Positions 6,301-62,197 of a stretch of DNA of 64,000 nt are shown in pieces. A model generated the notes under the pieces. It did not search any database, was not told the origin of the DNA, and saw only the letters and a list, made by a program, of their open reading frames with translations. Each line of letters begins with the position of its first letter. Positions within the stretch are counted from its first letter, which is position 1. The DNA comes from Ectocarpus siliculosus (lineage: Eukaryota > Sar > Phaeophyceae > Ectocarpales > Ectocarpaceae), in contig FN649746.1 of the NCBI GenBank assembly GCA_000310025.1, positions 358,920 to 422,919 on the forward strand. The letters run 5' to 3'. The position numbers and the translations under genes were made by a program.

Positions 6301-7084
6301 GCTTGTGGGCCGCCACGGGTTCGATCTGCAGGCCTGCAAGCTGACGGGTGCTTTACCACGCGAAGCGTCGCGTGAACACCGCTTCGGGGTGCAGCCACTC
6401 GCTGTTGTCTACCCTACGGCCAAGTGCCCATGACGCGACCACACTACAAAAGACCTCCATGGGAGAGGTACAGCAGTACAAAACAAGTTTATATACTTTT
6501 GCATAAATGACAGAGAGCGGACCCAAGAGGTTGTCGACGAAACACCCTTTCCAAAGAACACGACCCATGCCTTCACACTCACCCCGAGAGGACCAGTTAG
6601 CCCAGAGCACGTTGCTGTACAGGCGCCGGGGGCAGTGCGGCATGAAGAACAGCGTCGGCGTCGCCACGTCCTCGCCCCCTGCTTTGTCGCCACCGCCGCG
6701 TTCACCACAGCAGCGACAGCAGCACCGTTTCCCCTCCTCGTTTTCCAGCAAGCCACAACCGAGCGCCGCTAGAATCGCTTTCTCGGCTTCCCCCATGGTT
6801 GGATCAAACACGAGCATTGCCACTCCCGTAGGGTTGCTTTCTTGAGGGGACCGGTTGGCTTGCCTGCTCGGCGACTTGCTTGCGGCTGCGGGAGGACCGC
6901 GGCTGCCCCCGTCGGTGGGGGCCGGCTCTGGCAGGGAGCAATCCAGCTCCGCTGCTGCTGTTGCTGGTTTCGGGAGGGATGTTGTGCCGTCGTGGCACAG
7001 CTGCTGTTGTGTTCGTTCCGAATTGCTTACGTTGCTGTCAAGTCCTACGAGGCTCTGCGGTGTTGTTGCTGTTGATATTGCTGT

Positions 7085-23700: not shown

Positions 23701-23750
<50 letters not shown>

Positions 23751-38649: not shown

Positions 38650-41600
38650 ATGTGCAACGTTAGGATTGACGAGATCGCGTATCGCTTAGTGTCAAACCCA
38701 TGGTTCGACCGAGTGATCGTCTTGACTATCATAGTCAACTGCTACTTCTTGGCTCTGTACGATCCTACCAGGGCCTCGAACGAGCAGGTATGGTTCTCGT
38801 ATAATACGTGGTTCAAGGGATGTTTGTCGCCACACCAGCACTCTCGATTTTCTGTTCCTCTTGCCTGCGCATGTTCTGCAATAGATAGTTGCATGGTCTG
38901 CATGACTTCAAAGTAGACTACAGTATTATACTGTACCTGGTAGATACTTTACAAAGTTTCGTGATCGATTGTGAGTAATTTCCTACACATGTTTTCGAGA
39001 CAGTTCCTCGAAGTTCCCGCCCTTAACTCAGTGAGAATCCGTACGTTGTTGGTGGTTAGGCGTCTCGCACTCTACTGATGATGGTCACATTGGTACTGCT
39101 GTACATTCACATCATCGGGTATCTGGAGCATCTGGCAACCTTCACCCAAACCACTTACTTGCGTTGTCCCAAGCTATGCGCCGTCAATCCAATGTCACGG
39201 TTTGACCAGGATGGATATATTATCGTTGGAGACTACATGTTCAGTTCGATATTCATCGCGGAGCTCTTGGCCAAGTGGCTAGCTCTCAGCATCCCCACCT
39301 ACTTCAAGGACAATTGGAATTGGTGAGTAACTCCATAGACGTACTAGAGTGAAGACCAGACTATTCAGGTGAAAACTTGTCGTATTTACCAATGTGCGTC
39401 CGTTCCACCCTTGTAGCACGCACTACTCTTTAATACCAGCAACCGAAAATATTACTGGAAAAACAAAACAGAACATGCTTATCCTGGTTTTCCCTTTGTA
39501 GTCAAGAGTCCGCGGCTCAGAGTTTTTACCCATAAGCTGTAACGTTTAGACCATTCCCCTGTTGTCGTAAGCGATGTCGATCACCTCCAGTTCCTTGCGA
39601 TAATGACCTTGAACTCACCGCCGATGCTTCGAACTTCCCGCTCAGCATTCCTATGGAGTCACATTTAATCTGGAGTCGTACAAAACGTTATAGAAAAACA
39701 CTAGCACCAAACGGATGTCATACAAACATCTCTGATGTCTGGGTCCATGCCGTAAACTTTCAAGACATTGATAAGACTGGGTTTGTTCAGCCCTATGTCA
39801 CGATCGGGCAATGCCGCCCTCCTTGCTGCTTCTTTGACTTGAATCTTGCAGGGTGGACTTTGTCGTCGTTCTGGAGAGCGCGGTCAGCCTTGTGCTCAAG
39901 GCTTTCAAGTCCACAAGCTCGCTGGACATATCTGCATTGCGAGGCTTGCGAGTCCTCAGGCCACTTCGAGCTATCACGTACATACAGCAGGTATGTGGAT
40001 GTTTTTGCTGCGTCCCCTTGCTTGACCTCTCTCGGTAGCTGCTTAGAGGCGCGCTGGCTTTCCTCACGATGTGCCTTGATCCCCGAGGGAACAGGGAGAT
40101 GCCAAACGTCCATCTACGACGCACACGACATTTCATCGCAAAATTTACACTAGACCATGTGCTGGGAGCCAACTATTACAAATATCTGGCTCGAGTTTTA
40201 GAGAAGAAAGTTGTCGAAAGCCGACTTCATGTCGTCAAGAACGCATGATATATATGTTTGGTCACCCAATGGCTTGCGCAGCAACCAGTGCCCAAGGTCA
40301 TTTCGAGACGAAGCCACACAAGGCAGTTACTACTGTACTGTATCTCGATTTTGAGTGCCCCTTAGAGGCATCCATCAACCTACATAGCCCACCCTCACCA
40401 TGTCTTCCTCCTGGTTGATGCTGTCCTTTCCAATGTGTGATATCGTCGGATTAGGTGAAGCTCTTGTTTGAAACCGTCATCAGCGCCTTCAAGGTGGTCA
40501 ACACGCTGCTGCTGTGCGTCGGCATTGTGATGCTTTTCTTCGGGAATGTTGGGTGAGCCAATATCTTTACTTGACGGTAGACGATCCGCAACATGTAGTT
40601 TCAGATATATGTCTTGGTGTCGCTACTTCGTGCCGCTTCAGCACAGGCAAGACTTCTGAGCCAAACCAGTGGTATTAACGGAAGGAGGCTATTCCTGAGG
40701 CTCCTCACGAGATGATGTACGCCTTCTTCGTGGAAACTAGCCCATTGAAAAACGAATCTGGAGACGCTACAATCCTTGCCTCGCACCTTTGCCATTCCAA
40801 GTACCTCAACTCTTAACCTGGCTCGGGAGCAGGTACACGTACTGGGCCGAATCCTTCGGCCACACCTGCGAGGACGCTGTCACGTCCGACGTCCTCTCCG
40901 ACGATGTCGTGTGCGGCAAAGGCTACTCATGCCCAGACGGTTACGTGTGTACAGACTCGGGACATGTCGCTCTGAACGACGGAGTTACCGGATACCACGA
41001 CATCTGGCACGCGTTGTTACAGGTGGGAATCAGTTGCAGCATGACCACCTTCGCCAAACGCACGGGTCGCATATTATTGTTGCAACTCACCATGGTGTAC
41101 GGAGGTCACAGCCTACCGCTACCACCGCAAAAAATGATTGTAGCAAGAGGGGAGGGATTATTTAATCCTATCTAAGCCGGTTGTATCGATAAATCACGAC
41201 GTGCAAGAGCTTTCCTGTGTGGTAGGTCTGACAGTGCTCACCAGAGTGTGGAAACGAATGTCTCGGCGCTACAAGACCCTACGGTTGCGGGTGGTGGTGA
41301 TCATCAGTCCAACAATCACTGTCTGGAGTCGCATGTCCCGGGCATTCAAGTCCAGAAACGGCCTTCCTTGCCCACGGATCGGGAATAAGGGTACCACCAC
41401 CTATTCCTCCACCCAAGCAACGCAAACATACATAACCATGGAACTCATTGTAAGGGGAAAGGCAATTCTGCTGTTGTCGAGAAGCCATCATATCATTTCG
41501 TGAATATTCGGACCATTTGGCTCCCTCACGTGCTTAACAGACGTTTCAGGTGGTGTCGCTGGACGGCTGGCAGCAGGTGATGTGGCATACGCAGGACTCG

Positions 41601-41666
41601 GCCGGCGAAGGGACGTGGATATTTTTCGTTGCGCTCCTCGTGCTTGGGAACGTCGTTCTCGTCTCC
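38650..41666 (+). other. Channel domain I (S1-S6)
   Basis: S1 is WFDRVIVLTIIVNCYFLAL. S2 is FSSIFIAELLAKWLAL, followed by NWNWVDFVVVLES as S3. S4 is LRGLRVLRPLRAI, with four Arg at three-residue spacing. S5 is TLLLCVGIVMLFF. An extracellular loop holds four Cys (HTCEDAV...VVCGKGYSCPDGYVC). The pore loop is LLQVVSLDGWQQVM and S6 is WIFFVALLVLGNVVL. Selectivity residue: Asp in SLDGW, where Cav has Glu in TMEGW. Exons 1-6. Confidence 0.85.
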
Positions 41667-44600
41667 GTGAGTTGATCGATTTGGTCTCTGTGGGTGTGTT
41701 CTTGCCTATCCTACTCGATCTCGCCAGTACGAGAGGTTGGTATGTAGTCTATCTTTCGGTGTGTACCGTGTGTTGTACGATAGTGTTGTGCACGGGACCC
41801 CTCGTGTAGCAGCTGAAACCCACCCCTTTTGTACACCGGGCGCGGAATCGAAAGCACCGAAAGTCGAAGCATCTTCTTGACGCCGAAAAAATGTATGTAC
41901 TCACCAAGTCGTCTTTTTATTGGCGATCGTCTCCATCGACAACAGCTTGTCATCGCCACCAAAAGCACAAATAATAACTACACAAACCCCTACTGTCAAC
42001 GATGCACATACCGTTTGTAGATGTTTCCGGCAGTCGTTTCATCAAAGCTGGAAGCCGCCATCGCCCGTGAGGAGATCCGCAAGAGGAAGAGGATCCAGGC
42101 GGAGAAGGGCAAGGGAGAGGGTTTGGGGGAGAAGAAAGGCCCTCGCGTTAGCGAGTTTGAGATGCTCTTGAACGAGTACGCCAACATAGAGGCCGACGAG
42201 ATAGCGGTGCGTGCGTGTGGTCTAGCCGCTGTTGTTGCTGCTAACCACTACTCCGAAGGAGTAGTGATTGTAGATGTTGTGTGTACATTTCAAGTCCATC
42301 GTTATCATGTCTTTCCCGGTTCGCAACGTAAGGGATACAAGCGTAGCATTTAAGACAAAATGCTCACACGGTCCGACGCCAGGTCTAGACTATGAAAGAG
42401 AGACTGCTACAGCGTGTTTGTTCACACGAAGTGGTCAATTCTAGCCTAGAAAACGCTGAAGAGGTGAGCGTCCTGACTCTTGTGGGTAGCGCCCACTTTT
42501 TTTGTACAGGGATCAGGAGGTAACGCTGTTGCCGACCGTGTGCCGAAACCTGTTGTGAACGCGAGAGCGCGTTTGATGCCGTACCTTCCCGGCCAAAGCA
42601 CCGGTGATCATGGGGCAATTTAGCTATCCCCAGTTGCAAAGGAAATACAGCTAGATCGTGGACCTGTTTTCTTACTTCATGCATTTTAACGACTTTAGTG
42701 ACACGTTTAGCAACCAGTCCCGCAGGTTGGACGCACCCACCAGGCGTTGTAGGGCAATCGCCGGTAGCCTGGTTATCTTCGCGGGAGCGGTACGCACGCA
42801 CGAATGTGGCTCGCCGAATTACGATGACATGTCAGAGGCGTCACAGTTTTGGTAGCGTCCTTTGATGGTCATAGGCAAGCAAGCCGCCAACACCACGTCG
42901 TGTCGCCGGTGCATGGTTGAGCAAACATCGAAGGCCGACCCCATTGAGCCCGAAACGTTTCATGTTGAGTGTTGGCGAAACGTTACAACGCCCATGGGTA
43001 TCTGTCTCGAGTTGGATGCATCACCGTTGTGTCTACTCCTCGACTACGTTCGATTCGCTTCGTTGGTCCCGTGCCGCATCGTGACAGGCGATTGAGCGCC
43101 TGGCGGCCGTGCAACGTGGCGAGGTACGAGAAAAGCCCGAAGAAGAAGCACCACTCCCGCGCTGGACACCGTTTCCCGCAAACTCGACCATGAACCGCCT
43201 CCGCAAGGCGATTCTGTTGGACCTGGGGCTTTTCTCGATCATCGTCTACATCGTCATCTTCCTGAATGCCATGGTCCTGTGCCTGGACTCCGCCCACGCT
43301 AGTGACCGAAGAGAACGCGTGCTCTCATACGTGAGGGGTGGTAGTCTCCGATAGTTGGAACAGAGAGTATCTAGTCGATACACTCGAAAAAACCTTGCCA
43401 GGAACGTGTGATCGTCAACAGAATGACAAGCAAGATACGTTCTAGGACACGCATCAAAAACGAACAAACATGGAAGTGCATGAGGGAAAAACTCTCGTTG
43501 AACTAGTCCAACGCAAGGCATACAACAACTGGATTGCCGTCTAGGCGGGGGAACAGGATAAGGTTTTGGGTTTGGGGACACAGTGATGGTCATCTCGCGC
43601 AGAGGGCCGAAAGTAGCAGATTCGAACGCCCAAAAAGTTGTGCGGGAATGCGAATGGTGCTGCAGCAACATCAGACAAAGATGGAGATGAGTGCTACACC
43701 TCGTGCATTCTATTGCGGTCCTTCTGATTGTAGAAGATCTGCATTTCATGCCGTAAAATATTGTGCTGCCGACTCTATTGGATGCCCTTCGCTTTGTTTT
43801 CGTGAAAAGACTCCATCGCGTATCAATAATATTCTGGCTAACACCCTCTGTTGTATGCGCGTGGGTGATATGAAACTATTTATGTCAGCTTCACGAGGCC
43901 TTTACCTCTCTTTTCGTCATGGAGATGGCTATCAAGCTGGGGCTCCTGGGACCCATCGGATACTTCAGAGACGGCTTCAACATCTTTGACTTCGCGATCA
44001 CTTGGCTGGGCTTGATCGAGATTAGTCTTCAGGTTGGTCCGTAACTGCCACGACCCATTACGCTCAGAAGTTTCAGTTGTGTGTGAGTATCGCTCTTTTC
44101 GCAGGCAACCGGCACCTTTATACTTGAAAGAGAAGGATTGTACCTTCGAGTTGTTGTTAGTGTCTTTGCATTAAAAACCGTTCCGTTCTCTCTGCCCAGT
44201 ACCTCCTTCTGTCCGTACTGGTCTAACACTTGACGGGGTCGATTCCGGTGGTCACAGGCTAACTTACCCAAAAAAAGGTATACGAAAATAGAATGGACCC
44301 AAAGGGGCCGCAAGCCAATAAAAGTCAACGACAGATAGTCTAGGCCACTCCGCTCGCCTCTACACGCTATGCGAGGTAATCCTAGATTGGAAAAAGAAAA
44401 AGAAGAAGAGAGCAGATGGAGAGAAGGGAAAGCGAAGGAGAAAGAGACAGAGAAAGACACACGCCGTAGCGACAGCCAACAAACAAATAGAGAAACACAA
44501 GACAACACAAAACAACACAACACAAAACGTGCCACCCCAGCCAGCAAATGCACGTCATCGCTCGCGGGGGGTTGGTGCAATGGTGCAGTGCCGGGGGGGG

Positions 44601-47600
44601 GGGAGGATGAGTCAAGTAAGGGGTTCAATTCGAGTGCTTGCGGAAATTCGTTCTAATTTGCACAAGCAGCTGCTCGTAGTTCCCGAAGCTCTCCACTGGT
44701 ACATGCTTCGTATGTAGTAGGATTATCCTTGTTCTCCAGGCACTTCAACCATCGACACGGTGCGTCGTTTCTTGATATTTCTTGATTTGGAATACTCGAC
44801 ACGTTGACTTTCCCCAGCATTCTGGCATTGTGTACCTTTTTCGGAGTAAAACTAGTGGGGACTATTATGCAACAATATTATCCTCTCTAAAGACTGTCAC
44901 GTGCCTCACCTTACTTGGATATGGATCGCTTCGCCGGTGTCCTCGAAATTACCGTTCATACCATTTGGTCTGGCGAAGGTTGGCGGATTTGTTTCCGGAC
45001 TACGGGTCATTCGGATTTTCCGCATCGCAAGGGTGTTCCGACTGGCGTCGCTGGGAAAGCTGGGCCGGAAAAAGTTCAACGCCTCCCCCCAGGTTAGCAC
45101 GAACTGAACATCTTCCTCGTAACTGCCAATCATGTACACAAGTTTCGAATTCTGCACCTCGTACTTAGTAGCCGAGAACGTGCGTTCGCGAGTTCTCATG
45201 AGGGAACAACGACTCAACTCTCACAGCGCTGAGAAGTGAAGGCATGTACCGCGACCGTGGATCGGAGGTGTTCAGCTCGAGAGGCATGGTCGTAGGATAA
45301 TAAGTGGAAAACGCGAGCGACAGTTGACGTGCAGAACGGCGAAAATGTTTTTGAGTAGGGATCCGGCCCGCTCGTAAGAAACACCCATCTTGAGTAAAGC
45401 TTGAAGCCTACTCATCTCAACGATCGAGCGCAGGCAATTGCTATGATACCATATCCAGTAGGATTTTATGTGACTTGTGATGCCGGCGACTGGGCACAGC
45501 TTCTTTCGCCATGCTTCCTGTTTTTCCACAAATATTGGTACTCCAAGTGCAACACCGTATTGCCTTTCATTTTGAAACGTTTCACGAGATCGGTGTCGTT
45601 AATTTGCTTTCGGAAGGTTGAGAAGAGGAGATGTTGCATTGAAATCCGGACTACCATCTGTGATGCGATGATAGTGAGCTAGGAAGACATCGCGTCCCGT
45701 CCTCGAACGCCCACGTTCACTGAATGGACGGCCAGGTCGACCTCGGGAGGATGATCTCCATCATCACCACGTCCATACCGTGGATTGTTAACATCTACGT
45801 CGTTCAGCTTCTGCTCATGTACACCTTCGCCGTCCTAGGTATGTATGGAACGCCAAAGTTGCGATCCGAAAGGATGGTCATAACCACTCCTGCTTGTTGA
45901 TAGACGTGCCTATTTGCTGGGATACGAGCCGCTCTCGCCTGGTATTGATGAAACGCTGATGATTGTCGTAGTTTTGGTGCTGCATTTTTTCGCTCCCAGT
46001 TCCTGTCGCCGCCGTCCTTGGCAGCACTCAAGCGTTAGTCAGGCGGATATGCTGCACAAACCATGGCCGGTTCAATGGCCGACGTTCGTGGTATGTTAAC
46101 GTCAACGTGAGAAATGGTGAATTACTCCCCCCCTCAGCCCGCTCCGACAGAGCAGCTTCCCGTTCAAAATCCTCTCAGGCATGCAGTTCTTCGGCGGTGA
46201 CCTAGAGGACGTCGAATCGGAAGGAGACAACTCCATCCGTTTCAACTACAACAGCTTCGGGAAGGCAACCGTGACGCTGGTGGACCTTCTCACGGGCAAC
46301 GTTTGGAGCGAGCTCATGTTCGACACAGTCGCCGCAACCGGCCAACAATCGGGGATTTTGTTCTACGTGGCGTGGCTTATCCTGTCGAGGTGGCTGGCGG
46401 TCGCTATGGTGGTCACCGTGCTCTTCAATCGCATCGACGTGGATACGGAGGACTACCTTAAGATAGCCGCCAAGCACTCCATGCGCTCCCTGTTTGCTCT
46501 CGAGCACGCCTTCATGCAGGTTCGTGTTCGTTCTTCTGGTCGATTTGTTGTTTCTGTCTTTATCGTTTGGTTACTGTCTTGTTGCCTTCACAGACACTTG
46601 TCCTTTAGCCTCTCTCCAGAATCTTATAGACGGCAAGAAAAACACGAGTACCGTAGCCCAATGCAAGGTACTACTAGAAACAAGCGAGACAAGAGAAAGT
46701 TCGGTCCAACCACTCGCAAAGCAGAAAACGTCCCTGTACACAACAGCAAGCCCAGAGAGACAAAAGTAGCGTAGGGTGAGGAAAAAATCACAGGCAAAGC
46801 GTCTCTCAACCTCCCCAGTCGACATCATCTTCCCGGTATGGCCGTGTTTCAATACAGTGCCACAAGAGCCACGCGTTCTTGACCTGGCGAAAGCGGTACG
46901 AGGAAGCCACGGGGAACCGGTCTTCCACCAGGGGCCAGATGAAGCTGCTCGAGTACTCCCCTCCCGCAGCGCAGCCGGGCCTGTGGCAAAAAGTGGCCGC
47001 CTCAAAGAAATCCCTGCTCATCTTCGGGCCTCAAAACCGATTCCGGGAGTTCTGCCGGTGGCTCACCACCTCTGCAGCCGTCGTGCCCCCCAGCCCCTTG
47101 GACATCGAGTCGGAACGAAACGCCTCCGTTGGCGCCGTCCACCACCGGGGTTCCCGCAGCGGTAGGCAGGGAGGGGGGGTAAGACGCGGGACCCAGGGGG
47201 ACGTGATTGCGGGCAGTGGAAGGCCGAACGCCTCCTCCACCCTTTCGACGAGAGGAAACCAGGGCTGCTGGAGGCGGTTTCTCCGCAGGCGGAAGCCCCG
47301 CCGCCTTGCCCGCCTCACCCATCAGACTGCCCAGGTCTCTGCCGTTGTCGTCACCCTGGTCGTCGTGTCCCTCGACGCCGAGCTGTTTTCCGGGCGCCGA
47401 ACCGAGGGGGTGGGCACGACGCGCCTGCTGCTTGAAACCGCGTCCGTGTGGGCGTTTCTCGCCGATTCCCTGTTGTGCATAGTGGCGCAGGGGCTTGTCC
47501 TCCTGCCGGGGGGGTACCTCCGGGACCCGTCCAACGTCCTCGCCTTTGTTCTCACCATTCTGTCTGCCATCTGCTTGTGGGGCTTCGGCGGCACGGTTGG

Positions 47601-50600
47601 GCGGGGAACGCTGCTGTCGGTGTCGACCCTGAAGGCCCTGCGCGGGCTGAACGTCTTTCGCTTGCTGAGTCTCGCCGAGCTGTCGCGTAGCCTGACGGAC
47701 TTGTTGAGGTCCCTCCGTTCTTCAGGGAAGGCGCTGTGTCTCGCCGGAGGGGTGGTTGTGTTCTTCTGGCTCCAGTGGGCGATCGTGGGGCTCCAGGTAT
47801 CTACTCGTGTTGTCCTACGTTTTTTCCTGTTCTTTCTTTTTTCGGTGGGTCTTGTGCCATCTTCCAGTACCACAATAGTTGTTTTCGTTTCTTGTTGAAC
47901 CTCTGTCGATTGTGTACTTGCACGCTGCTTCACCCCAAACCGTTAGCCGTTGGAGACCAACAGCCATGTATCGCTGCTTGGGTTGATTTGTGTCGTTTGG
48001 CTGTCCGAGACAGCAGACAACGGGTAAACATGCGCCTCTGCAGCTTAAAATAAGCTCCGTTTGGATGTGTTGGATGCCAAATCGACACGTTCAGGTGTGG
48101 GAGGGCACATTTGGTTATTGTTCTGATCCCGTGACCGCCGAGGCACACGGAGAAGAAGTGTTCTATGTGTACCACACGAGTGAGAACGGCATAGAAGGGC
48201 AGCAAGAATGCGAGGCCGAAGGCTACGAATGGGGAAACGCCACCTGGAACTTCGACAACTTCGGAAACGCGCTGCAGTCGGTGCTCATCATCTTCACGTA
48301 CGATGGCTGGCAAAACATCATGTTCAACGCGATCAACGCCAGGTAGGACAGGTTCTATGCTAGTCTTGTTTATGATCATTACGGTTCTGTGAAAGGGACG
48401 CTCAGACTCTTCAGTTTGCTCGCGCACCAAGGAACAGAAACAAGCAGCGTGTCACCGCGATCCAAATTTATGGGCCCTCTCTACCCGCCAAAACCCGCGC
48501 AAAAGGTATCAGTCGTTTTAGTGAACAACGCCTTCGTACCCTAAGAATCCGGTATTCTAAGCCAGCAGGTTGACCATGCGCAGGATTGACGTTTGTCCTT
48601 TCGTCGCCTCTGTATTTGGTTCTTCTTGTGAAGCTCAGTCACGTTTCTTCACGCATTGCTTGCACCCCCCAACAAAAATAAATCATCAGGGTGGCTGACG
48701 AAGGTCTCAACGGCAGTGAGTGGAACAACACCTGGGCCGCGCTGTTCTTCCTGTTCGTGCTCCTGCTCTCCCTGGTGCTCGTGTTGCTTTTTGTCGGCAT
48801 GGTGTTCTCGATGTACACGTTCATCAACCTTACCAAGCGGAGCGGCCAGCGTCTCTCCAGCCTGAAGCAGGTGGGGCTCTTTGCGGTACATTTGCAGCCG
48901 CTGTTTTCATCTCCAGGGGCATAAACCTTTGCCCGTTTCATTGGTGTCTTAGCACGAAAAAAACTGCTTAACAGCTGTTAGTCCTCCCGTAAGGTAAACC
49001 ACGTCAACTACATGACCAGCGAAATGGACGACGAACGAAGACAGCAAGATTTGCACCCGATTATAATTTCCCGTCCAAACGTCTCAGCGCCGCACCAGAT
49101 GTTTTGGAAGATGAACGAGACACTCTTATTCCAAAGCTTGGCCATTTTTCTTTAACTCTAACGCTTTCCCAACCCAGGCGTTCTGGACCATGTACGAAGC
49201 AAAGCTAGCCAAGGTTCAGCCGGACACGGTCCTTGCTTGCCCCGCCGATGCCCCCGCTGTGCGGCGGCTCCTCTTCAACGCGGCCAGCAAACGTCGCTGG
49301 GGCATCGTCCTAGCGTCTCTCATCGGAGCGAACGTTGTCGTACGGTTCCTGATCGGCTCGAACTGGTTGCACTACTTCGACGCGCCCTCCTGGATTCACC
49401 TGGAGGAGGCGGTGTTCGCGCCCTTGTTCGTGCTCGAGTGGGTTTGCAGAGCGATTGCTTTCGGAGGCGTTCGGGCTATCACCAGGTCTGAGGGGAAAGG
49501 GGCGGACGATGCGCACAAAATCTTGAGATTCCTCTCGCGCGATGTTCTTTACTCGATGCAATGTCTCGAACAACCCTGAAAAAGGCGATCTAGGGTCAAG
49601 CTCCTTTGTACCCTTCCCATCATCAGGACGGACGGGCCCGTTCCTTTGGCCACCCGCAAAACGCGAACGAGAGGGTTGCTAAACAAACCTTATTTAGCTC
49701 AAGCTGCAAATCGTTGTCGATAACCTGCGTGTACATGGACACGTGTCGAGTGAAGAAGTCGGCTGGTCGCCACGAGCATCACGAAAGAATCAGGCCGGCT
49801 CTCACATTCCGTTTCATCTTCTCCCACTGTGCACAACGTTAGCCGAGCTCGAATCCTCGCCCGGACTTTCCCCACCGACTTCACCCTCAGGTCGTATTTC
49901 CAGATGGTGGATTTCTTTTCAACGCTCGTGTTGGCGCTGGTTTTTGTTGAAGAGGTGAGCACGTCATCACCTGGAGAGGTGCCTGTAAGTGGATATCGAT
50001 TTTCTGATGACTGTACGTTGCGTTGCACTGACGCTCTTTGGAAACATCGTCTAACAGCAACCTAACCTGAGCAAGGCACTGCGTTTCCGGGGTCTCCCTG
50101 ACGTTGGCGGGCGTTGTGGCAGTGAGCTTTCGAGTTGGCACCTCCTTTGACACTCCAGCCCCGCTTCCTCCTAACGCCTAAAACTCTTGCGTTTTGTGCC
50201 GCGATGCTAACACTCACGCGCGTGCACTCAGATCCTGTTCCTCTCGAACCTGACACCATCGTCCTCCGCGTCCTTCTGGAGAGCCGTGGAGGCCGCCTCG
50301 ATGGTTAGGCTCGTCCGCCTCGGCCAAGTCCTCCCGAACGCCCAGGAGTTTCTCCTCGTGATCGCCAAGTCTTCCAGCGTCGTCTTCCCCCTGCTGCTCG
50401 TGCTCACCGCCCTCACCTACCTCTGGAGCGTGTTCGGCGTGCTCTTCTTCGGGAACGAAACGTACCTCGCCGGGCTGTTCGGGGATGGGAACCCCTGGGA
50501 GACCGTGAACCGGCACCAGGGCTTTTTCAGCGTTGCCCAGGGCATGCAGACCATGATCGGCGTCGCGACAACTCCCGGGTCGAACGGCTGGATCACGCTG

Positions 50601-53600
50601 ATGCAGCGCTACGAGGACGTTACGTCCCCCCAGTGGAGGTGGGCGGTGGTGACGTTCTTCGGAAGCTACGCGCTCCTGACGAGGTTCTTGCTGGTGCATT
50701 TCTTCATGATCACGCTCCTGTTCAAGTACAAGACTCACTCTTACGACAAGGTAGGGGGAAAAGGGAAACGCGGGGGCGGGCCGCATTTTTCCTGGTGAAG
50801 ATTTTCGTGCAATGGTTGGTTCGTTGTGCCGCTGACCCCGGGCTTTCGTTGGCATGCTATATTAGGGCAAGGGTGAGAATATCCCCCAAGTGTGTGGTTG
50901 AGAACTCTTAGAGAATTTCTGTTTTTTGTTCTGCCCCGCTGTTCTCGTGATTGCGGGGCTGCCCGTATTTCCTGCTTCGAGTCCCCCCGTTGGATCCACC
51001 AAGCGGATCGTCGAAGTATTATCTCTCCGCTTGTGCGGATTCAACAGCACGTTTTTGATGGAGACCGAATCGATTTTTTGCCGTCTTTCAGGCCGGCGTT
51101 GCAATCGAGCAAGTCAACCAGTTTAAGCAAGCGTGGATGGCCCACGCCTACCGTTACACCAAGGAATACACATCCATTTACGCCGGTCAGCTCGTGGACC
51201 TGCTCAGAGAGCTTCCCCCCCCTCTCGGAATCGGCAAGGAGGGGTCCTACTACGACTGCCAAATTCTGGCCAAGAAGGTGTGATAGCCCGTGTGCGTGCG
51301 TGTCCGGGGCCACAAACATATCGCGTAAATACCAGTTGGCGACAGTTTTGAAGCTTAGCGTTTTTTGCACGTTCTAGCCGGGTTTCTCGGATGGGTCGAT
51401 CGTTACCAAGTAAAGAGACAGGAAGGGATACACAACTCTCAAGCATTCGGGGGACGATCTTCCGTGTTTTATCTAACGGGGAAGGCTATCGACCTCGAAA
51501 CTCGCAGAAGGAGAGTCCTGATGTCTCATCCCCCTACCTCGCCGTTTCTGGCATTGTCGAGTCGGCCCGTCTGCAGTTGGCAATGCTCTTTGGAAACCCT
51601 ACATTGTGAACCGCCCTCACTTAGCCCGCTTCAGATTTCGGGATAGATGGAAGCGTTTCCCGTCATGCTTAGAATAATGTTATTGTCCTCTCGCGCATGC
51701 GTCGGTATCTGGGCGGCATCAAAGTTAATATCTTCTGGTGCTTGGGGTCAGCTTCCGTGGTTTTGTCGTTACCCTCGTCGATCAGGTGCTGATCGCCTTA
51801 GGAATAGACGTCGTCGCGCATGTCCCGGCTGAAGATCTGACGGGCGTGCTTTCGTTGTACGGGAGCACCGTCGAACATCTCGGCGGCAAGCCACTTCCGG
51901 TGCAGAGAAACGGTTTTGGGAGTGGTCCCGGATTCATCAGGCTTAACTTCTCTAAGGTATGTGAAAGTTTGTGACATGTGAGATGTTCCCTCGTACATAA
52001 ATTTCAAATTGTTTGTAACTTGAAATTTCGAACTCCTGACGATTGTCCGCTATTATTGTATCGACCGATCGTGCCCGACGACGATTGAAAACCACGTACC
52101 GGTCTCGATGGACCTCTTGTCCACGAACGAAGAGCAGACCACCAAGAGCAAACAATTGAGTTTTGGTCTGTCTTACTGCCCGTGAGGAGCGTTTCAAAGG
52201 CTCCTCCCGCCCATTTGTTTTCAGCATATTTCCCTGCTCGTTGTAGAGCCGATCGTTTCTTCGGCCACGGCGCGGGATGCCACACACACACACATACACA
52301 CACACAGGTGCTGGTTGCCGTCCACCGCATCGTTCTCTTCGACCTCACGCTGGAGGACGAGCGGCAGGTCAACGAAAGGAGGAACAACGCCATGCGCAAC
52401 CTGTGCGTGCTCAAACTTGGGGTTCACCGTTTCCTCGCCAATCAAGCCGAAAGGTGACCAAAGAGAACCCCTGCGCTGAACTCTTGCGCGAACATGCAAC
52501 AACAGCGAAGTCCATAAGTCAGAACACGCCCTACTGGTTTATCACAAAAGCCCGGGGTCCACTACGTAGAGCCCCCTCTACCTTTTAGACCCTACTCGCT
52601 ATGGTATCCGCTAGATTTAAGCCATAGAAATACAAGTTGGTTACCGAACAACAGTATAAACTCATCATCGCAAATCTATCACGGACTCTATTCTCTGGGA
52701 GATATGGATTTGTTGTGTTTTTGTAAGAAAAAAAACATTTTGCGCATCGCACCCTACCCGGCTCCCGCTGCTGGGGACGAACTCACGACATCCCAGGACA
52801 GTAGCAACGACCCGTGCACAGCAGGAGGGCGTGGCCCTGCGGGAGTGTTCTGTTCTCAGGACGCAGCTCCCGGCCACCTTCAGGGCTAGGATCTCCATGG
52901 CCCTCACGGCCGAGTTCTTGCGGTGGAAAGACCACGTGGATGTGAGCACTAGCCTTTCTTGTTTGGTATTGAACTTCAGAGGTGTTTTTCGCAAGTAGGA
53001 AGAATATAATCATCTACGTCAGTACGCGTTGTTCCGTGAATCTATTGGATTGTGTGTGCATCGGCATTGTCGATATAGGGTCCGCGGTCGATTGACGATG
53101 AACCGTCGCGAACCCTTTCGCTCAAAAAACCAAAAGCGCGCTGTTGGTGCATGGACGCCTCTTTCGTTGACATGCATGTATGTGCAGTTGTGGGGATGCG
53201 ATGGCGAGGTGGATCTGCTCGGGAGATGTCTGCTCGAGGCAGCTTCGCACGAGATCAACGCGACGGCAGCTGTAGAACAGGTGCTTGAATTCCCCGACCC
53301 CGCGCGCGGGGCGTGTGCATCGGGTGTCCCCATGCACAGTGTGGGAGGGAGACCTCTAACCAGCGAAATCCGAGGACCCCTTGATTTGTAAATCCTCGAG
53401 CAAGTGGTTCTCTATCGGGCTTTTGGGACTTTGAACAAAAACTGTTTGGTTCTGCTCTTAACTTGTGAGATAATGCGATATTGGAAGCTTTTCTGGTTCG
53501 ACCTAGCTAGTTTTCGCGGGTGAGCACATCAACGTTCCTCATCTCACCTCGTGGTGATCGCAAAAGAGGAAACAACGAACGGTGGACCTCCGATTTATTC

Positions 53601-56600
53601 GTCGGGAGCACAAGCTGTTAACCAAATCTGTAGCCAACAACAAGCCCGGAAGTCTACAAGGATGTGCAGTCTAGGCCGGTGGACCAAAGGTTGGCTCTAG
53701 GCCGGTGAGCCACAGGTTGGCTCGGAAAACCGTGCCGATCCCCGCTAGGTGTCGGGCGGTTGCGGGGTGAGTCTCCTATACCGCCTTATCCACGCTAAAG
53801 GGTGTAACTGGGGCACGTTTTGAATAATATATCTGAATTCCCCAGATGCCAACTCTTTAGCCGAACAAAGCACGAGATCAAAAGGCAAGTTACGATAATC
53901 CCAGCCAAACGTTTTTTGGGTTCGATGGCGTGCTACATCTCGCTCGGCTCAGATCTAAACGTACCCCCCCCCATTCCCACCCCGGTCTTCCCGGTGAAAT
54001 ATTGATCTGGTGATGGTATAGTTGACCACCAGGCTGTTCGAGTCCCACGTGGGAGACCGGAAGCTGGTGACCCGGCTGGCCGAGATCAGGCAGCACCTCC
54101 TTACGCTCAAGGGGCTCCGTGTGAAGCTCAACGCCGCCAGGGGAGACTACCTGCAAACCTCTTGGGACGGAGGCAGTCTCCGCGTGCGGCAGGTGTGATG
54201 CGAAACGAAACCTTCTCTCGCTTGTTCCAAGTTTCATTTATAATTGTTGTTCTCTGCTAAGTCTGGAAGGTACCCAGGGGGAGACACCGGTTGCTTCCCT
54301 ATCTCATCCAGAATCCAAGTCTCCCGTCCATGTCCATGTCAACTGGCCGGGCCTACAGAATGCCGTCCTGTACCGAGAACCTCAATGACACTGTACCATT
54401 GACATCCACCAACATCGGAAAAGTTCCCCACAACCCGGCACAGTGCTCCACACCAGACGCAGCTGGGGAGAGCCTTAGGTGTCATGAGGTGCACAGGGCC
54501 ATGCGTGGAGACAGGAACGTGTTGACACGGCTACTCTGTCTTCTTTCTCACATCCTGTTCAGAGTCCTTGTTTCGGTAGTTCCTTCGTCAATCGAGCGAG
54601 CGGTATTGGGATGAAACTGCCATCGTGCCGTAGTCACGGATGTCGATCCGGAGGCTATACCAAGGACTTTGTTGTCCACCGCCGAAGGTTGCTACATAGA
54701 GCCTCTTCCAAGAAAACGACCCTCCAAAATGTCCCCTTTTACACTTGTAAGCGACATCCAAACGCCGAGGAATAGCCCTGAAACCGTTTCTTTTTTTTTC
54801 ATACGTGCCTACAGCAGATCCACGGCTGGAAGAGCTGTGCTGTAGTCAACAGGAAGACTGGATGAGAAAAAATCTATCTTTGTCCTTGCTGAGCCTTTTA
54901 AATCGAGATTTTTCCCCTTTATTCTTTATTCTTTGGTGGCAAGACGATTGACGACGAGGAGCGAAACTCAGGAATAACAGGGATATGTGCCAGCGTGGAC
55001 GGCGTTTGGGTGTTCTGCACCACGGACGACGGGCTGCTCAAGGTTTTCAAACGAGGCAAACCTCCCCGCAGGAAGGGAAAGAAGAGGACCAATCAACAAG
55101 GTGCCGGGTGTATTATTCGCGTTTTTGGACTGTTTTATTTCGGTGATATCGGCGTCGTTATGAGTGTTGAGCGTGCTTTGTCCCTTTTTATCCTGGGACA
55201 AGCCTAATCTTTCCGTACAAGTTTGACGCATATAGTCAAATAGTTTGCTAGACCAACTTGACAACGTTCAAAAGGAAAAACAAGAAAACGACACGTTCGT
55301 GCTGTATACATGGTACTTACCCTCGAAGAACTACCTTGGTAGATATTATGTTGTTCGCCTTAAAGCCAATAGCATTTACTCCACCAACATTCCTTCCTAC
55401 ACGTCCTTCCTCTCCTCTTGCTTAGGAGCGTACGCCCTGGTGCAGAACATGGGGGTCAACGGAGACATACCCAAGGGTAGCAACGGCGGTAAAGGCAGCA
55501 GCGGCAGCAAGAGAACTACGAGGGGGTTGTGCGTTGCGTGTTCCCCGGACGGTTTCATCGTTATGGCCGGGTGTTCCGACTCAGGAGTCAGAACCTTTTG
55601 CCAAGACACTGCGGGGTTTCGGCGAGCTGTGCACGTGAGTGAATCCCTGCCCGCACCCCTCCGCAGCAGATATGTGGTTGTGATATATTATCTCTGTCAT
55701 GGTCGCGGGTTCTCATGTTCCGTTGTTGCCCCTGGGTTCCATAGGTGCTCTCAGCTTGCAGTACCGCCGTAAGGTCGTTTCGATGTTTAGTAGCAACTAG
55801 GACTTACCGTCAAAAACGAACGCTAGAATATGTGGTAGTGAAACCTTTGTTTTCCACCAACAATGTAATCTTTGTTTTCCGCCAACAGAAACAAACCGTG
55901 TAGATGAGCTTGAATAAACTCGCACCACTTTAACAATCACGAGTGAGCAGGCTGCAACAGACGTTTTTCTGTAGACATTCCACCTGGTACCAAACTCGTG
56001 CTTACCTCACGTTAGATTCTCTCGGTGGGTGTCAACCCAGGAACAAAACATGGGAACAGCGTTGTAGAACAACCAGACCCCAAATGTTCATACTGCTGAA
56101 ACTCACCACTCCGGAAAACCATCGGGAGCAATTCGTTGCTTATGAGTCGGCCGGCCTGTTGCCGTTTTCGGTGGGCGGAATAGAAGCAATAACACGCCTG
56201 CATCCTAAGAGAAGCAATGCTTACCGGGCGCGCGATCCAGCTAGCCTGAGCCGTGGTCGAGGTATTTCCTTCCGCCCCTGCTCCTGCCTTGTGTGCTCGC
56301 CCTGTTGAGAACTTCAGCTTCTCTCTTTTTCTCCACAATTTTTCGAGTCTCCCTCCGTGTTGCCTCATCTTTCTTCTCAAAAGTGGGAGGGTTAATTTCT
56401 TCTCCGGCGCGTTCGTCCTGTCCACGTTATCTGTTCCACTACTGTACCACCCCTTTCCGTCATGGCATCAGGAGATGAAGGCGGCAGGTGTCCGGGGGAG
56501 AAAACCGCCCATCTTATACCGCCCAACCTCAGTTGGCAAAGGGCACAAGGCAGCCGTGGTAAGTACGAGAGCGGGCCCTTGAATCCCATTATGAAAGTGT

Positions 56601-59600
56601 GCGGGACGTATGCAAGGCCTCGCCTTAGCCAGTTTATCCTGGAAGATCAGTCTCAGCGCGCGAACCCTCCAAGAGGAATGCGATCGAGCGAAAAAAGGAT
56701 TACATCGAGCTATGTTCCCGCCAAAGAAATTAATCTTCCCTGCTTTGATTCGGGTAGAACTAAGCCAGAGACCGAGATGTGGACTCGGAAAACGTTTGCA
56801 AAGTTGCCCCTGCCTTACCACACTCTAGATTCCGCCGGTCCATGCCGGCCCCATCCGAAAGATGTAGAGATGCACCTGTCCCGGAATCAACACCGGCATA
56901 TGTCGCGTGAGTGGACAGCGCAGCCGCACGACCAAAATAAGCGCTTCATGGCCGGGCCCGTCCGACAAGAAAACCCAATAAACAGAGGTACTGTTGTGCC
57001 ATCGGAACAGTGCCCCGTCTCGATGAGGCAAGCAAAAGCGAGAACGCCCCCCTTTCGTATTACCCCCAAAGAGGTGCGTAACTTGGCTAGACCCCGGCTA
57101 CTTCTACACCGGCGGGGAGGACGGCACGGTGTGCATGTGGAACAAGAGCGCTGCTAACCGACCAGCGCAGTTCGTGGACGTATGTCGTTCGAATTTTTCG
57201 TGCGGCCCCGTGCGGTGCCTGTCAGTATGGAGGACAACGTACAGTACCGACCTCTTGGCGGCTTGCTTTGAAGTCGACGATGGCCAGGTATGTTGTTGTG
57301 GTCGTTGTGGTCGTTGTGGTCGTTGTGGTCGTTGTTGTTGTTGTTGTTATTGTTCGCTTTAGGGGCGATGGTGTTTCTCACATGGAACCCTTCAAAAGCG
57401 GCGATCGCACGACAAGGGTCATCCTACAAGCGATTCACCAACAGCGATCCGGGCACCACCAGAGCCTCGAGTCCATGTGTACGTAGCAAGGAGGGTTTGA
57501 AGAGGGACAAAAGGTTGTGTAGTTTATATCCCAAGGCGTTGCGCATGAGGCCCCAAATCTGTTCTGTGGCGTGGTGGCTCGTAGACGAGGAAACCCTTCC
57601 TAAATCACGTACAGTACACGCGACTTGGCTGGTCTGCAACAGTAAAAAAAAACAAACGCCTACATACGAAGCTCCCGAGAAGCGACTCCGTGGATGGAAA
57701 TAGCATCTGCTTCGAAATCTGTTCTTCTGTCCTTACCGGGCATCACACCAACAATCCGAACGGCGAGAGAAAAGGTTAAGGTGTCGTCCCCAAAAATACA
57801 AAAGGTGCAAGGCTGGGTTGATGAGGCCAGATTGGGGGGGTCTGCGAAGAGTAATGTGATGAGAAACACTGACAGAGCCCTTCGATACCCCTTCAACACA
57901 TACCTTGAACTAGTAGAGACAGGCGGTGAAATCAGGAGGGAAGCAATTAATCAAAGCTATCGCCGCAAATGCGCAAGCGAGCCGGCTGAGGACTGATGGG
58001 GGTTGAAAGCCGGGTAAAGGTCGTCGCTACCGAGCATCCATGATAGCACGAAGCCTCGTCGTATCCAAACAAGAACAGGACGAATCGACAAAGTGTTAAT
58101 TTTGGGAGAGATCTCCCAAAAGCACTGCCGGGCCACCCCCCTGCGAAACCGGCTCATAATTTTTTGTACAGTTTGATGAGCACAATGATTTAAGAATGCT
58201 CTTGAATACACTCGGCTTCGCTTTTGGTACATCTCTCGATCAACCTTGCACGACTCTCCCCCAGGTAAGGTGAATGCTTTACATCCCACCGTTCCTCCGC
58301 CTTCCATGAATGCCTTCGCAGGAAGTGGACCCCCCGGTGTGTTTGCTGGCTGGAGACGGTGACGGATACCTGTCGGTGCTACCCGCCAGAACAGATAGCT
58401 CCTTCTTTGCGATCGACATTTGGAAGACTTCATTGAGACACCAGGTAGTGCATGAAAAGCTAGTCCTTGGATGTACGAAAAGCGCACTGAGCCTTTCTGA
58501 AATGCCGAGTTTGGATGTACGACATCCTTTCGAACTCAGTGCCATGTTACTCCGTGGCCCATTCTTCCCAGGAATTTACATGAAAAATCGCCATTTCACT
58601 ACATAGTACAATGGGGCAAGTGTTTGTGAGCGTTGTACGAGCGCTGTTTTAGCTATGTGTGAGCGCTACATGATAACGCACAAGTTCCGTAGGTATTGTA
58701 CTGTCGGTATTGAAGTAGTAGATGGGGAATCACGATCCCGGCCCAGTCTTCGTACTCTCGAGTGAACTCTGAGCGGGCGTGGTCTAAAGGGATAAATCAA
58801 CAGGTAACCAGGAAGTGTGAGTACCTCAAGGAGCAGCCGACCTGTTCCCTTCCCACTGTACTGCTTTGTCTTCCCCTACAGTAGCAATTTCAAAAAACGC
58901 TCCATACGCACTTGCATCACGTCCCTCGGAATACCTCTGCCTCAACAGCCTACGTTCACATGTGTCGTTGCCCGGTCATCTTTTCAGGTCGACGCAAGCG
59001 GAGGAGCCGTGACGGCTGTCGAGGTGGCGTGGGGAAGGGTGTATACCGCTTCCGGTCTAGCCGGAGTGATCAAGGCTTGGACTCCGCTTTGGGATGACGC
59101 GACCAAGGAAAAGGTACACTTACATGTTTTGTCGCTCGAGGCATGAACGGACGGAGCGGTAGGTCTAGGGTTAGAGCCATTCGACAAGGGGTGCTGTATA
59201 GAGCTAAGAAGTTGTCTCAGTGTGAAGATTACCACAAAGGTGTCCGGGTGTTGGAGGGACGGAGTTGAGTGCTGTTTACCGCGTGGGGTGTAGCCCGCAT
59301 CTCGTACGGTGCACCGGTGTTCACGCAAAGGTCCACAAACGGTATCGCGACTGAGGATAGTAATGGCGCCAATCCCACCGAATGATGCGTCCGAAGGCGA
59401 TTTGCAAATGAAGATCCTGCCATTCCAAAACGTGTCTTTGCCTTCGCCCTGCTCTCCCCGGCACCGATCCGTGGACTTGTGGGGATCCAACAGCTGCTGG
59501 GTTTCTCGCCGGTGGGTCAGTATGCCGTGCACTCCGGAGAGGTGTCCTCCATCGTCTACGCCAAGGTAAGCTGAAACGAAACTGTCGGCCAGGGCCATAT

Positions 59601-61423
59601 ACATGCGCAACGTCCAAGAGAGCGCTCCATTGAGTCGTTGTTTCCCCTCGGTGCTTCAGCAGTTGTTTACACCGACGACGTTGCCTCTCAGCAGGCATTT
59701 CCAAACACGCCACGAAAGTAGGTAGACGCGGAAAATTTTAAACTGTTCCGGTGGTGTGGAAGGTGGAGGAAGTAGGGACAAGGCCCGGAATAGCGTTCGG
59801 CTCCCTTCGCCCCTCCCCCCCTCCCCTCCTCGCACCCCATCGACGGTGTCTGCCCTGCCATTATACGGAAATTGTCCCACCTTTACACGCGGCTGCTTAT
59901 ACAATGCCGAAGCTTGCAAGCGACGAGGCTTGAACCTACTGAGGGCGCCGATCTCCTACCCTCAAGAAAACAAAGGGATGCTGCCGAGCGGACACACTGA
60001 CCCATGCCCTGTCTCCAATCACGAGAGAGCACAACATAGAACTTCGATAGATGATTGCCGACATACTGTCTTGACGTCGCCCTTTATGTCTTCCTCCAAT
60101 GCTCTTGGGGGGAAATGTGCTTTTCACCGTTATCCCGCAACACAGGGTTTGATGTTTTCAGCCGGGGCCGACATGTCCATCATCACGTGGTACCCTCCCC
60201 GCGAAACGGGCACCTCTGGACGAGCCTCGGCATCGCCCCCGTCCCCGCACGACGAGGAGCAAACACGCCTACGGCGTCATAACTCCGGGAGCACCGAAGA
60301 GCCATCTCCGGCCCTTCTGGCGCCTCCTAGCCCTGCCCCTGCGCTGGCATCAAACGAAGGCGGTATCCGGACCGGGGTGAAGCACGAGAACGACCCGGGA
60401 GTAGTGGTGCATGTGGCAGAGGTTATCGGCATCGCAGTGGTTCCGGGAGCTCTGGTTTCGGCGGATGCGGCGGGGAGGCTGCTCGAGCGGGGACCTAGCA
60501 GACATATCGGTGAGCCAGCCCCTCGCGTGTGGCACTTGTAAGTGCTATCCGGAGGACAGATATCGTCAAACCGAAGCTGATTGGATCAAACCGGGAGAAC
60601 CCGTCACACAAGAAAGCGGGGTCGCCGACAACAGCCAGCCGTGGTTGTGGGTGTGTTCATCTCGTGACTGCCGAGAGAGATTTGTGGATGTTGCCATCAA
60701 CGCTTCTGATGTTTGTTGAAATAGTCAACGCGGAAGAGCAAAAAGGCACAATAATACGTTGGCGGAAGGATTACCACCACACGACAATGTCGATATCGAG
60801 AAGAATGTCGTCCCTCCGTGCTTGGTCTCCTCAGAACGCCACTGCAGGCAGATTCTACCGAGCGATGAGGCTATTCAAAGTCTGCGGCCGATTGCCCTGG
60901 AGGTGCTCCGAACAAGGGCGCACGCGAGGCGTACGACCCCCGCGCACAGGGGAGGCGCCGCAGCTTGTACAGTAGCGGCTACGGCAGCCGGTACTGATAC
61001 CGCCGTTGTGGCACAGGTAGGCACGGGTAGTTTGAAGTGCTCAAGTGGGTGAGTCTTAAGCCGGAAGGCGCCGGCGCCAATAGAAACGCTGTCGACTAAG
61101 TTCGTGAACATTGATGTAGTTGCTGAAATTGCGCGCGGAGCAACTGCGTAGGGGGGCGATATTCCCCCCCCTAACAATGAGTACCCGCCCTGTAGCAGGC
61201 TGTCCAGGACCACCTCCGCGCGGTACGGTTCCTTCTGAGGGCAAAAGCGAAGCGCCGCGCCAAGGAGGAGATTCGCGTTGAGAAACAGAAGGCGGCCGAC
61301 CTCCAGACCGCGGCGATATTCGCGTCGAGACTGGGTCAACAAGCGGGGCGGCCTATGCTCGGGGCCGGGAGGGCGCCGAGGGACTCGGCGTCTAGTGATA
61401 GGAGTTCTGCGTCCGACACGTGA
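38650..61423 (+). CDS. Four-domain voltage-gated cation channel fused to WD40 propeller
   Basis: Predicted plasma- or endomembrane cation channel of the Cav/Nav/NALCN four-repeat class with a C-terminal WD40 propeller, about 2275 residues in 33 exons. Exons: 38650-38787, 39210-39322, 39852-39990, 40455-40552, 40833-41022, 41550-41666, 42021-42206, 43088-43330, 43889-44032, 44979-45092, 45736-45838, 46179-46519, 46867-47796, 48095-48342, 48690-48870, 49178-49485, 49891-49954, 50232-50750, 51092-51277, 51786-51956, 52308-52453, 52797-52941, 53188-53280, 54022-54192, 54944-55100, 55426-55634, 57072-57287, 58322-58444, 58988-59113, 59494-59565, 60146-60509, 60769-61016, 61199-61423. Every junction keeps phase; total 6828 nt. 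Layout by residue: domain I 1-265, II about 330-590, III about 790-1080, IV about 1130-1390, helical C-terminus to 1696, seven WD40 blades about 1700-2110, basic tail to 2275. Less certain: the start, exon starts at 44979, 59494 and 60769, and whether 53280 to 54022 is a real splice. The alternative is two genes, with the channel ending at a stop near 53391. Confidence 0.74.
43088..46519 (+). other. Channel domain II (S1-S6)
   Basis: S1 is LFSIIVYIVIFLNAMVLCL. S2 is AFTSLFVMEMAIKLG, then FNIFDFAITWLGLIEISLQ as S3. S4 is LRVIRIFRIARVFRLASLGK, the best-preserved voltage sensor, with five Arg and a Lys. S5 is VNIYVVQLLLMYTFAVLG. The pore loop is LVDLLTGNVWSELMF and S6 is ILFYVAWLILSRWLAVAM. The selectivity residue is Asn in TGNVW, where Cav has Glu in TGEDW. 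Exon 42021-42206 before it is the basic, helical I-II linker. Confidence 0.82.
46867..48870 (+). other. II-III linker and channel domain III
   Basis: The 930-nt exon 46867-47796 encodes a basic, Pro/Ser/Gly-rich linker and then S1 to S5 of domain III without interruption, in contrast to the fragmented domains I and II. S4 reads LKALRGLNVFRLLSL, with only three positive charges in the 3-residue register. The pore exon has IIFTYDGWQNIMF (Asp at the selectivity position) after a long turret. S6 is ALFFLFVLLLSLVLVLL. The following III-IV linker has no IFM-like inactivation motif. Confidence 0.82.
49178..51277 (+). other. Channel domain IV and proximal C-terminus
   Basis: S1 is WGIVLASLIGANVVVRFLI. 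S2 is APLFVLEWVCRAIAF, then FQMVDFFSTLVLALVF as S3. S4 is MVRLVRLGQVLPNAQ, with only two Arg in register. S5 is VVFPLLLVLTALTYLWSVFG. The pore loop is GVATTPGSNGWITLM and S6 is RFLLVHFFMITLLF. Relative to Cav ATGEAW, the filter has three extra residues and Asn at the selectivity position. The next exon, VNQFKQAWMAHAY...LVDLLRELPPPLGIG, matches the conserved helix after S6 in Cav channels (F..aW...L..LLr.l.pPLG). Confidence 0.82.
52281..52307. repeat. (CA)n microsatellite forming a splice acceptor
   Basis: ACACACACACATACACACACACAG in two stretches runs straight into exon 52308-52453 of the channel gene, so the final CACAG is the acceptor. There is little of the usual pyrimidine tract. Confidence 0.85.
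53671..53723. repeat. 26-bp tandem duplication
   Basis: Two adjacent copies starting CTAGGCCGGTG and ending AGGTTGGCTC lie in the intron 53281-54021 of the channel-WD40 model, the least certain junction of the fusion. Confidence 0.8.
54944..60509 (+). other. Seven-bladed WD40 propeller of the channel gene
   Basis: Blade signatures in order: GICASVDGVWVFCTTDDG; GLCVACSPDGFIVMAGCSD; RCVTWLDPGYFYTGGEDGTV; LLAACFEVDDG joined to VCLLAGDGDGYLSVL; GAVTAVEVAWGRVYTASG; HSGEVSSIVYAK joined to GLMFSAGADMSIITW; and VVVHVAEVIGIAVVPGALVS. Seven blades is the usual number for a closed propeller, which supports the exon choices. Blade 1 and blade 2 are separated by a Gly/Ser/Lys-rich loop; a long Pro/Ser insert lies before blade 7. 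Confidence 0.75.
57288..57356. repeat. GTTGTGGTC minisatellite at a splice donor
   Basis: Four units of GTCGTTGTG-type 9-mers followed by GTT triplets begin within five bases of the donor GTATGT of exon 57072-57287. Confidence 0.9.
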
Positions 61424-62197
61424 GAGGATGTTGTTAGGTCATGGAGTGTTGGCGGTGTTACACACACTTGGGGCGGGTGAGGGAGCGGAGAGTCATTTCG
61501 TCTACGTCTACGTAAACCGTTTTGGTGTGAAACGTAGATTTCTTGCCGTTTCATATGCCGAGACAAATAAATAACACATTCATTGACCGTCGGAGAAGAT
61601 GTAGAAACTCAATTCATGGAGAGTTGACTGACAAGTTCCACAACAGCGTATGCGATCATCATCTTCCCCTGGATGGGTTACAAACGTACGAAGCGGACGG
61701 GGTTAATTTGGTTTGCGGTTGTCACCATGGAAAACCTTCACCCTCGTCGTTCTTCAACCGTTGTGTAATGCGCCACCCGTGCCTCCGACGACAGATTCGT
61801 AAGAGCACGACGGTGCTCAATATTGAGCAGCGTCTCCATGCGGCCCGTCGCAGGCCAAGACGGGGAAGGTATTTCGCAGGTGGGCGAAGCAAAACCGGGA
61901 CTATGAATGTCTCGTGCATGTTTCTAGTTAACTAATCTTATGAGGGGTACTTTCACATGCATGTATTCTCAAATAGCGTAAATACGTGGGATGTTTTGGC
62001 CAGTTGAAGGAGCGAAGGTCGGAAGAACGTTGAGCGTGGTTCACGACGGCTTGGGGTCAGCGGCTAGGCTGCCATGCAGTGATTGTGCATACTGCCTATC
62101 GAGAGGCAACAAAAATATGTTAGCCCTTGCCTTCGTGCGCGCCGAACGTATGGTGCTCACATTTGGTTGGCCCGTGCTCTCGAACATTGACAAGCAG
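61424..62197. other. Between channel-WD40 gene and next exon
   Basis: No firm exon. A possible basic helical exon at 61794-61868 (RKSTTVLNIEQRLHAARRR, flanked by an AG and a GT) does not join in phase with 62198. An in-frame ATG at 62150 (MVLTFGWPVLSNIDK) could start the next gene without an intron. Confidence 0.4.

Follow-up and report, generated by a model that had tools for sequence, protein, structure and literature searches.

Ion channels usually recruit their scaffolds and modulators by binding; animal Cav2 channels are modulated by free G-protein beta-gamma, and to our knowledge the T-type (Cav3) calcium channels have no propeller. A survey of 277 four-domain channels reported unusual selectivity filters in protists, and term counts in its main text returned neither 'WD40' nor 'WD repeat' (PMC5824947). 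Cav channels have been reported in some centric diatoms, and an algal Cav has been linked to flagella (PMC11085791). Among open-licence papers, we found no published description of a protein that combines a four-repeat channel with a propeller. The brown-algal gene analyzed here belongs to a known channel superfamily; its conserved domain architecture is, as far as we have found, undescribed.

The gene lies in a 64,000-nucleotide stretch of the Ectocarpus siliculosus genome, hereafter the window (contig C21, 358920-422919; assembly 189 Mb). It is encoded on the plus strand by 37 exons from 38650 to 64633, which is 633 bases past the window end at 64000 (gene end C21:423552), and its 3,009 codons before the stop specify a protein of 3,009 aa. 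The final model has 36 introns, each of them GT-AG, and the sole N run of the window (23923-23979) falls outside the gene. A single open frame leads from the ATG at 38650 through four Ion_trans repeats to the WD40 blades, and P0001, P0002, and P0004 align from their own first residue at 38650.

The gene model was built with a small program that scores splice sites and coding potential, then by hand, and finally with the proteins of relatives; the final exon model is based on homology. The first gene-finder output over-split the window, and with heavier penalties the program linked exons that do not belong together, both upstream and downstream. A micro-exon pair in the first model (56472-56487/56542-56558) was rejected because the relatives indicate a single exon, 56472-56558, and an exon 22 start at 52860 was replaced by 52797. 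Codon-model scores reach +40.8 in channel exons and range from -8.4 to +3.3 in propeller exons; since the model was trained on the same channel exons, the propeller exons rest on homology. The intron after exon 57072-57287 contains a GTT/GTC-rich simple repeat (57288-57360).

A preliminary description of this DNA counted 33 exons and placed the stop at 61421-61423. Its continuous frame from channel to propeller is retained, but the count rises to 34 in 38650..61423 and 37 in the gene. The proposed stop overlaps a splice donor (CAC/GTGAGA at 61419/61420) beyond which the relatives continue, and the C-terminus had been misread, with about 720 residues left out. In tblastn comparisons, the next exon (61795-61879) is matched by P0001 and P0003, exon 62198-62290 by P0001, P0003, P0004, and P0005, and exon 62645-64633 by P0001, P0003, and P0004, with P0005 matching its later part; the partial protein P0002 stops before all three. 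Coordinates are collected in Table 1.

Table 1. Features of the channel-propeller gene, in window coordinates.
Feature	Position	Strand	Exons	Evidence or remark
Whole gene	38650..64000 (runs on to 64633)	+		Co-linear with P0001, P0002 (partial), P0004, P0005
Repeat I and start of I-II linker	38650..42206	+	38650-38787, 39210-39322, 39852-39990, 40455-40552, 40833-41022, 41541-41666, 42021-42206	Ion_trans; exon matches
Remaining I-II linker and repeat II	43088..46519	+	43088-43330, 43889-44032, 44979-45092, 45736-45838, 46179-46519	Ion_trans; exon matches
Repeat III	46858..48870	+	46858-47796, 48095-48342, 48690-48870	Ion_trans; exon matches
III-IV linker and repeat IV	49178..50750	+	49178-49485, 49891-49954, 50232-50750	Ion_trans; exon matches
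Filter residue, repeat I (D234)	41562..41564	+		Alignment
Filter residue, repeat II (N572)	46298..46300	+		Alignment
Filter residue, repeat III (D1028)	48302..48304	+		Alignment; D in P0001, N in P0002, P0004, P0005
Residue at filter column, repeat IV (N1343)	50583..50585	+		Alignment; adjoins 3-residue insertion
Cav-like cytosolic C-terminus	51092..52453	+	51092-51277, 51786-51956, 52308-52453	
Linker, channel to propeller	52797..54192	+	52797-52941, 53188-53280, 54022-54192	
WD40-like propeller	54944..60839	+	54944-55100, 55426-55634, 56472-56558, 57072-57287, 58322-58444, 58988-59113, 59494-59565, 60146-60509, first bases of 60835 exon	PF00400; WD40 chains in PDB
Basic stretch after propeller	60840..61801	+	60835-61016, 61199-61419, start of 61795-61879	Helical by inspection only
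Splice donor GTGAGA overlapping proposed stop 61421-61423	61420..61425	+		
C-terminal extension	61795..64000 (ends past window)	+	61795-61879, 62198-62290, 62645-64633	tblastn: P0001, P0003, P0004, P0005
Predicted beta-grasp (ubiquitin/RA/PB1-like) domain in extension	63446..63808	+		

The remainder of the window carries, on the minus strand, fructose-1,6-bisphosphatase-like exons (19475-26619; PF00316 41 bits, FBPase_C 91 bits), ankyrin-repeat exons (13908-15901; PF12796 28 bits), and an SRR1-domain protein of four predicted exons (5810-6817; PF07985 69 bits). Neither a tRNA nor an Rfam match at the gathering score turned up in the window.

In the channel part, the four Ion_trans repeats score 283.5 bits for the first two and 158.4 bits for the last two, with two stretches in each half. 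The nearest solved chains are those of T-type calcium channels (Cav3; 9ayg, 7wli, 6kzp), with 9ayg at 327 bits, and are followed by other Cav and Nav chains; NALCN scores 85 and TPC1 51 (best 60 of 132 matches), placing the channel closer to Cav3 than to NALCN. The aligned filters read D/N/D/N in the window gene and P0001, D/N/N/N in P0002, P0004, and P0005, and E/D/D/E in the protist protein P0006 (see below); the other eight channels in the alignment have an acidic residue at each of the positions. The gene has neither the E/E/E/E or E/E/D/D filter of calcium-selective Cav channels nor the filter lysine of Nav channels (D/E/K/A), and repeat IV of the brown-algal form carries three extra residues beside the filter position. 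Judged by eye on the alignment, S4 is rich in arginines in repeats I and II, reduced in III, and poor in IV, and P0006 likewise appears to have a charge-poor S4 in repeat IV. Pfam returned for the C-terminus plus linker a sub-threshold GPHH match alone, which lies in the Cav-like C-terminus (16.1-16.3 bits; cut-off 26.8); this weak match is what bears on a possible IQ/pre-IQ calmodulin-binding region like that of calcium-selective Cav channels.

The preliminary description considered the junction 53280/54022 its weakest link and saw no start-like exon ahead of the WD40 part. The junction is now borne out, as the residues joined there are identical in P0003, P0004, and P0005, and the exons on either side are matched, in order, by P0001 and P0002. 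Exons 24 and 25 and the open frame just upstream indeed lack an in-frame ATG, but exon 22 has one at 52897, and the frame before exon 23 has others at 53098 and 53176. The linker-propeller sequence is single copy, with all 13 of its genome matches at its own locus.

About seven WD40-like propeller blades can be counted by eye, starting near 54971, 55521, 56541, 57207, 59000, 59530, and 60410. PF00400 scores 44 bits over two stretches, above the cut-off of 27, and 24.5 bits, below it, in P0004; a genome search with this family gave no match in the window among the 150 of 434 candidates scored. The best WD40 chain in a PDB search was a designed repeat propeller, 7bie, whose E value of 5.1e-14 sums weak blade-length pieces with no single stretch over threshold. 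The 795-residue C-terminal part matches no Pfam family at E up to 10, and the extension ends in an acidic tail. The first fold prediction for the putative beta-grasp domain missed the first hairpin (pLDDT 47.5).

The tail (first-model residues 1600-2249) was searched against candidates of 0.55-1.75 times the whole query length, and five matches were returned among 7,990 scored proteins. P0001 (2,994 aa, 96.4% identity end to end) is possibly the window gene's own cluster and is not counted as an independent relative. P0002, from Ectocarpus fasciculatus, is partial (2,126 aa, 92.9% identity), with channel and propeller co-linear. P0003, from Scytosiphon promiscuus (1,498 aa, 58% identity), starts at a Met inside the linker and is without the channel; it is either a truncated model or a counter-example. 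The EukProt proteins P0004 and P0005, presumably of brown-algal origin, align over residues 1-3005 (59.5% identity) and 1-2950 (60.6% identity), respectively. Identity between the window gene and these two is 63–79% in the channel repeats, 74–75% in the linker, and 67% in the propeller, and each is without some blade segments found in the window gene. Past residue ~2,870, P0005 (g7859.t1) continues into unrelated WSC and other domains and appears merged with downstream genes. AUGUSTUS models built with RNA hints are described in a brown-algal genome paper, in text not tied to P0004 or P0005 (PMC6418280).

A protist protein, P0006, is also fused. With 2,568 aa and three member sequences, it derives from an MMETSP transcript, which is labelled complete, and from an 8,163-base JGI contig. 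A profile of P0001, P0002, P0004, and P0005 gave 1,875 matches when searched; the best 120, which we examined, comprise the four query proteins, P0006 at 834 bits, and 115 channels, none of them scoring above 395 bits. Among the matches listed, the Pfam column gives no WD40 family for any of these 115 ordinary channels. Ion_trans matches four stretches in P0006, as in P0004, and its four repeats, linker, and propeller follow the order of the brown-algal gene. We scored P0006 with brown-algal segment profiles; the controls were the 115 ordinary channels and 300 shuffled versions of the P0006 sequence (database size 421). The channel profile reaches 658 bits (best ordinary channel 402) and the Cav-like C-terminus profile 20.3 bits (best ordinary channel 14.2). 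The linker profile matches at E 5e-7 (best ordinary channel E 32, best shuffle E 0.67), linker residues 1518-1702 being 21% identical to P0006 across 183 columns, and the propeller profile at E 1.7e-29 (best ordinary channel E 5.8, best shuffle E 2.8). P0006 was not matched by the profiles of the coil, extension, and acidic tail; that of the beta-grasp segment scored a non-significant -0.8 bits, which 0 of 500 shuffles reached.

Because the linker and propeller of P0006 match the brown-algal profiles, an old, inherited fusion is favored. In the maximum-likelihood tree, which covers 26 rows (six fused proteins and 20 hand-chosen members of the 115 ordinary channels), P0006 and the five brown-algal rows group together (100/100), with a long P0006 branch (path 3.43 to the window gene). 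For these sequences, the fused architecture is most simply explained by common descent. A protein search with the P0006 tail recovered P0006 itself only; since it missed the known brown-algal relatives, such word searches are insensitive and do not settle the spread of the family.

At the sequence level, the channel-propeller fusion is supported by the relatives and by the transcript-derived protist protein. The preliminary description would count orthologs that are always two separate genes against the fusion; this pattern is not seen, as P0001, P0002, P0004, P0005, and P0006 are fused and P0003 alone is channel-less. We consider it likely that one gene encodes channel, linker, propeller, and extension, a judgment made jointly with the gating, selectivity, and docking mechanism proposed below. 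That gene prediction merged a channel gene with a neighboring propeller gene, here and in the relatives, is in our view highly improbable. Such a merger could account for the start of P0003 within the linker, P0005 illustrates that merged models do occur, and 52897, 53098, and 53176 are possible in-frame starts; yet in the P0006 open reading frame, transcript-derived and marked complete, the parts follow the same order and the linker fits the brown-algal profile, P0003, P0004, and P0005 join identical residues across the linker junctions they cover, and the tail is found nowhere else in the genome. The earlier stop could also mark a shorter isoform of ~2,290 aa, produced by retention of the intron after 61419, in which read-through of the donor would immediately meet the TGA at 61421-61423. 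With P0001 and P0003 continuing into 61795-61879, and P0004 and P0005 into exons beyond, we regard this isoform as very unlikely.

In the mechanism that we propose for the single-gene product, depolarization would shift those S4 helices that are rich in arginine (repeats I and II) and open a cation pore, with fewer S4 charges in repeats III and IV. The partly neutral filter would leave the brown-algal form with weak or no Ca2+ selectivity. The propeller, held by the linker at the inner mouth, would serve as a built-in docking platform for partner proteins, which would thereby be kept at the channel, or as a gating modulator. Judged from its sequence, the protein is probably a depolarization-gated cation channel that is not classically Ca2+-selective, and the earlier suggestion that the propeller holds partners at the channel fits these data. 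An alternative is that the brown-algal protein conducts poorly or not at all and acts as a voltage-sensing scaffold with the propeller as its output. The two or three asparagines in the four-position filter, the insertion in repeat IV, and the few arginines in the S4 of that repeat would suit this alternative, which is nevertheless unlikely given the conservation of the channel repeats (63–79% identity between the window gene and P0004/P0005) and the D/D/D/D, N/E/D/N, and N/D/D/N filters of other protist channels, whose selectivity is not established (PMC5824947). By analogy with free G-protein beta-gamma on animal Cav2, the propeller might instead work as a Gbeta-like modulator, covalently joined to the channel, and inhibit the pore or tune it, given a probably helical segment followed by a WD40 domain on the C-terminus of the pore chain and RACK1- and Gib2-type chains among the PDB matches. 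The RACK1/Gib2 rows are, however, weaker than those of designed and other WD40 chains (best 60), and we hold such a role to be quite unlikely.

More broadly, and tentatively, the proposed depolarization-gated channel with a docking propeller may belong to a voltage-gated channel class that predates brown algae and whose pore subunit contains a propeller scaffold (perhaps also a beta-grasp domain). The brown-algal pore would then have lost most of its acidic filter and turned into a propeller-coupled electrical sensor that is either non-Ca2+-selective (perhaps Na+-carrying) or non-conducting. A scaffold-like domain in the pore-forming chain would make voltage-to-docking coupling testable in one gene, and the changed filter bears on the question of what carries brown-algal electrical signals. 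For Saccharina latissima, one paper states that sperm discharge needs Na+, possibly with an action potential, and reports a Nav-annotated transcript in males only, without statistical support (PMC6742357).

In comparison with known systems, the protein shares with Cav3 channels four repeats within one chain, but the Cav3 row of the alignment (P0025) is acidic at all four filter positions, unlike the brown-algal form. Elsewhere in the same genome, Ion_trans clusters occur on C17 (2.57-2.59 Mb and 5.02-5.04 Mb) and C62 (184-211 kb), and the two on C17 resemble similar, ordinary four-domain channel genes. The C17 loci have Ion_trans matches, as here, and, by pattern search, E-containing filter stretches (both loci have STGENW, and the 5.02-Mb locus also has STTEAW), but are without a match to the linker-propeller sequence. 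WD40 beta-propellers (designed WRAP-T, DOA1, TAF5, WDR41, and RACK1 chains) have the blade motif in common with the gene, but, unlike here, they do not lie within a channel. With P0006, the window gene shares 21–39% identity by segment, from channel to propeller.
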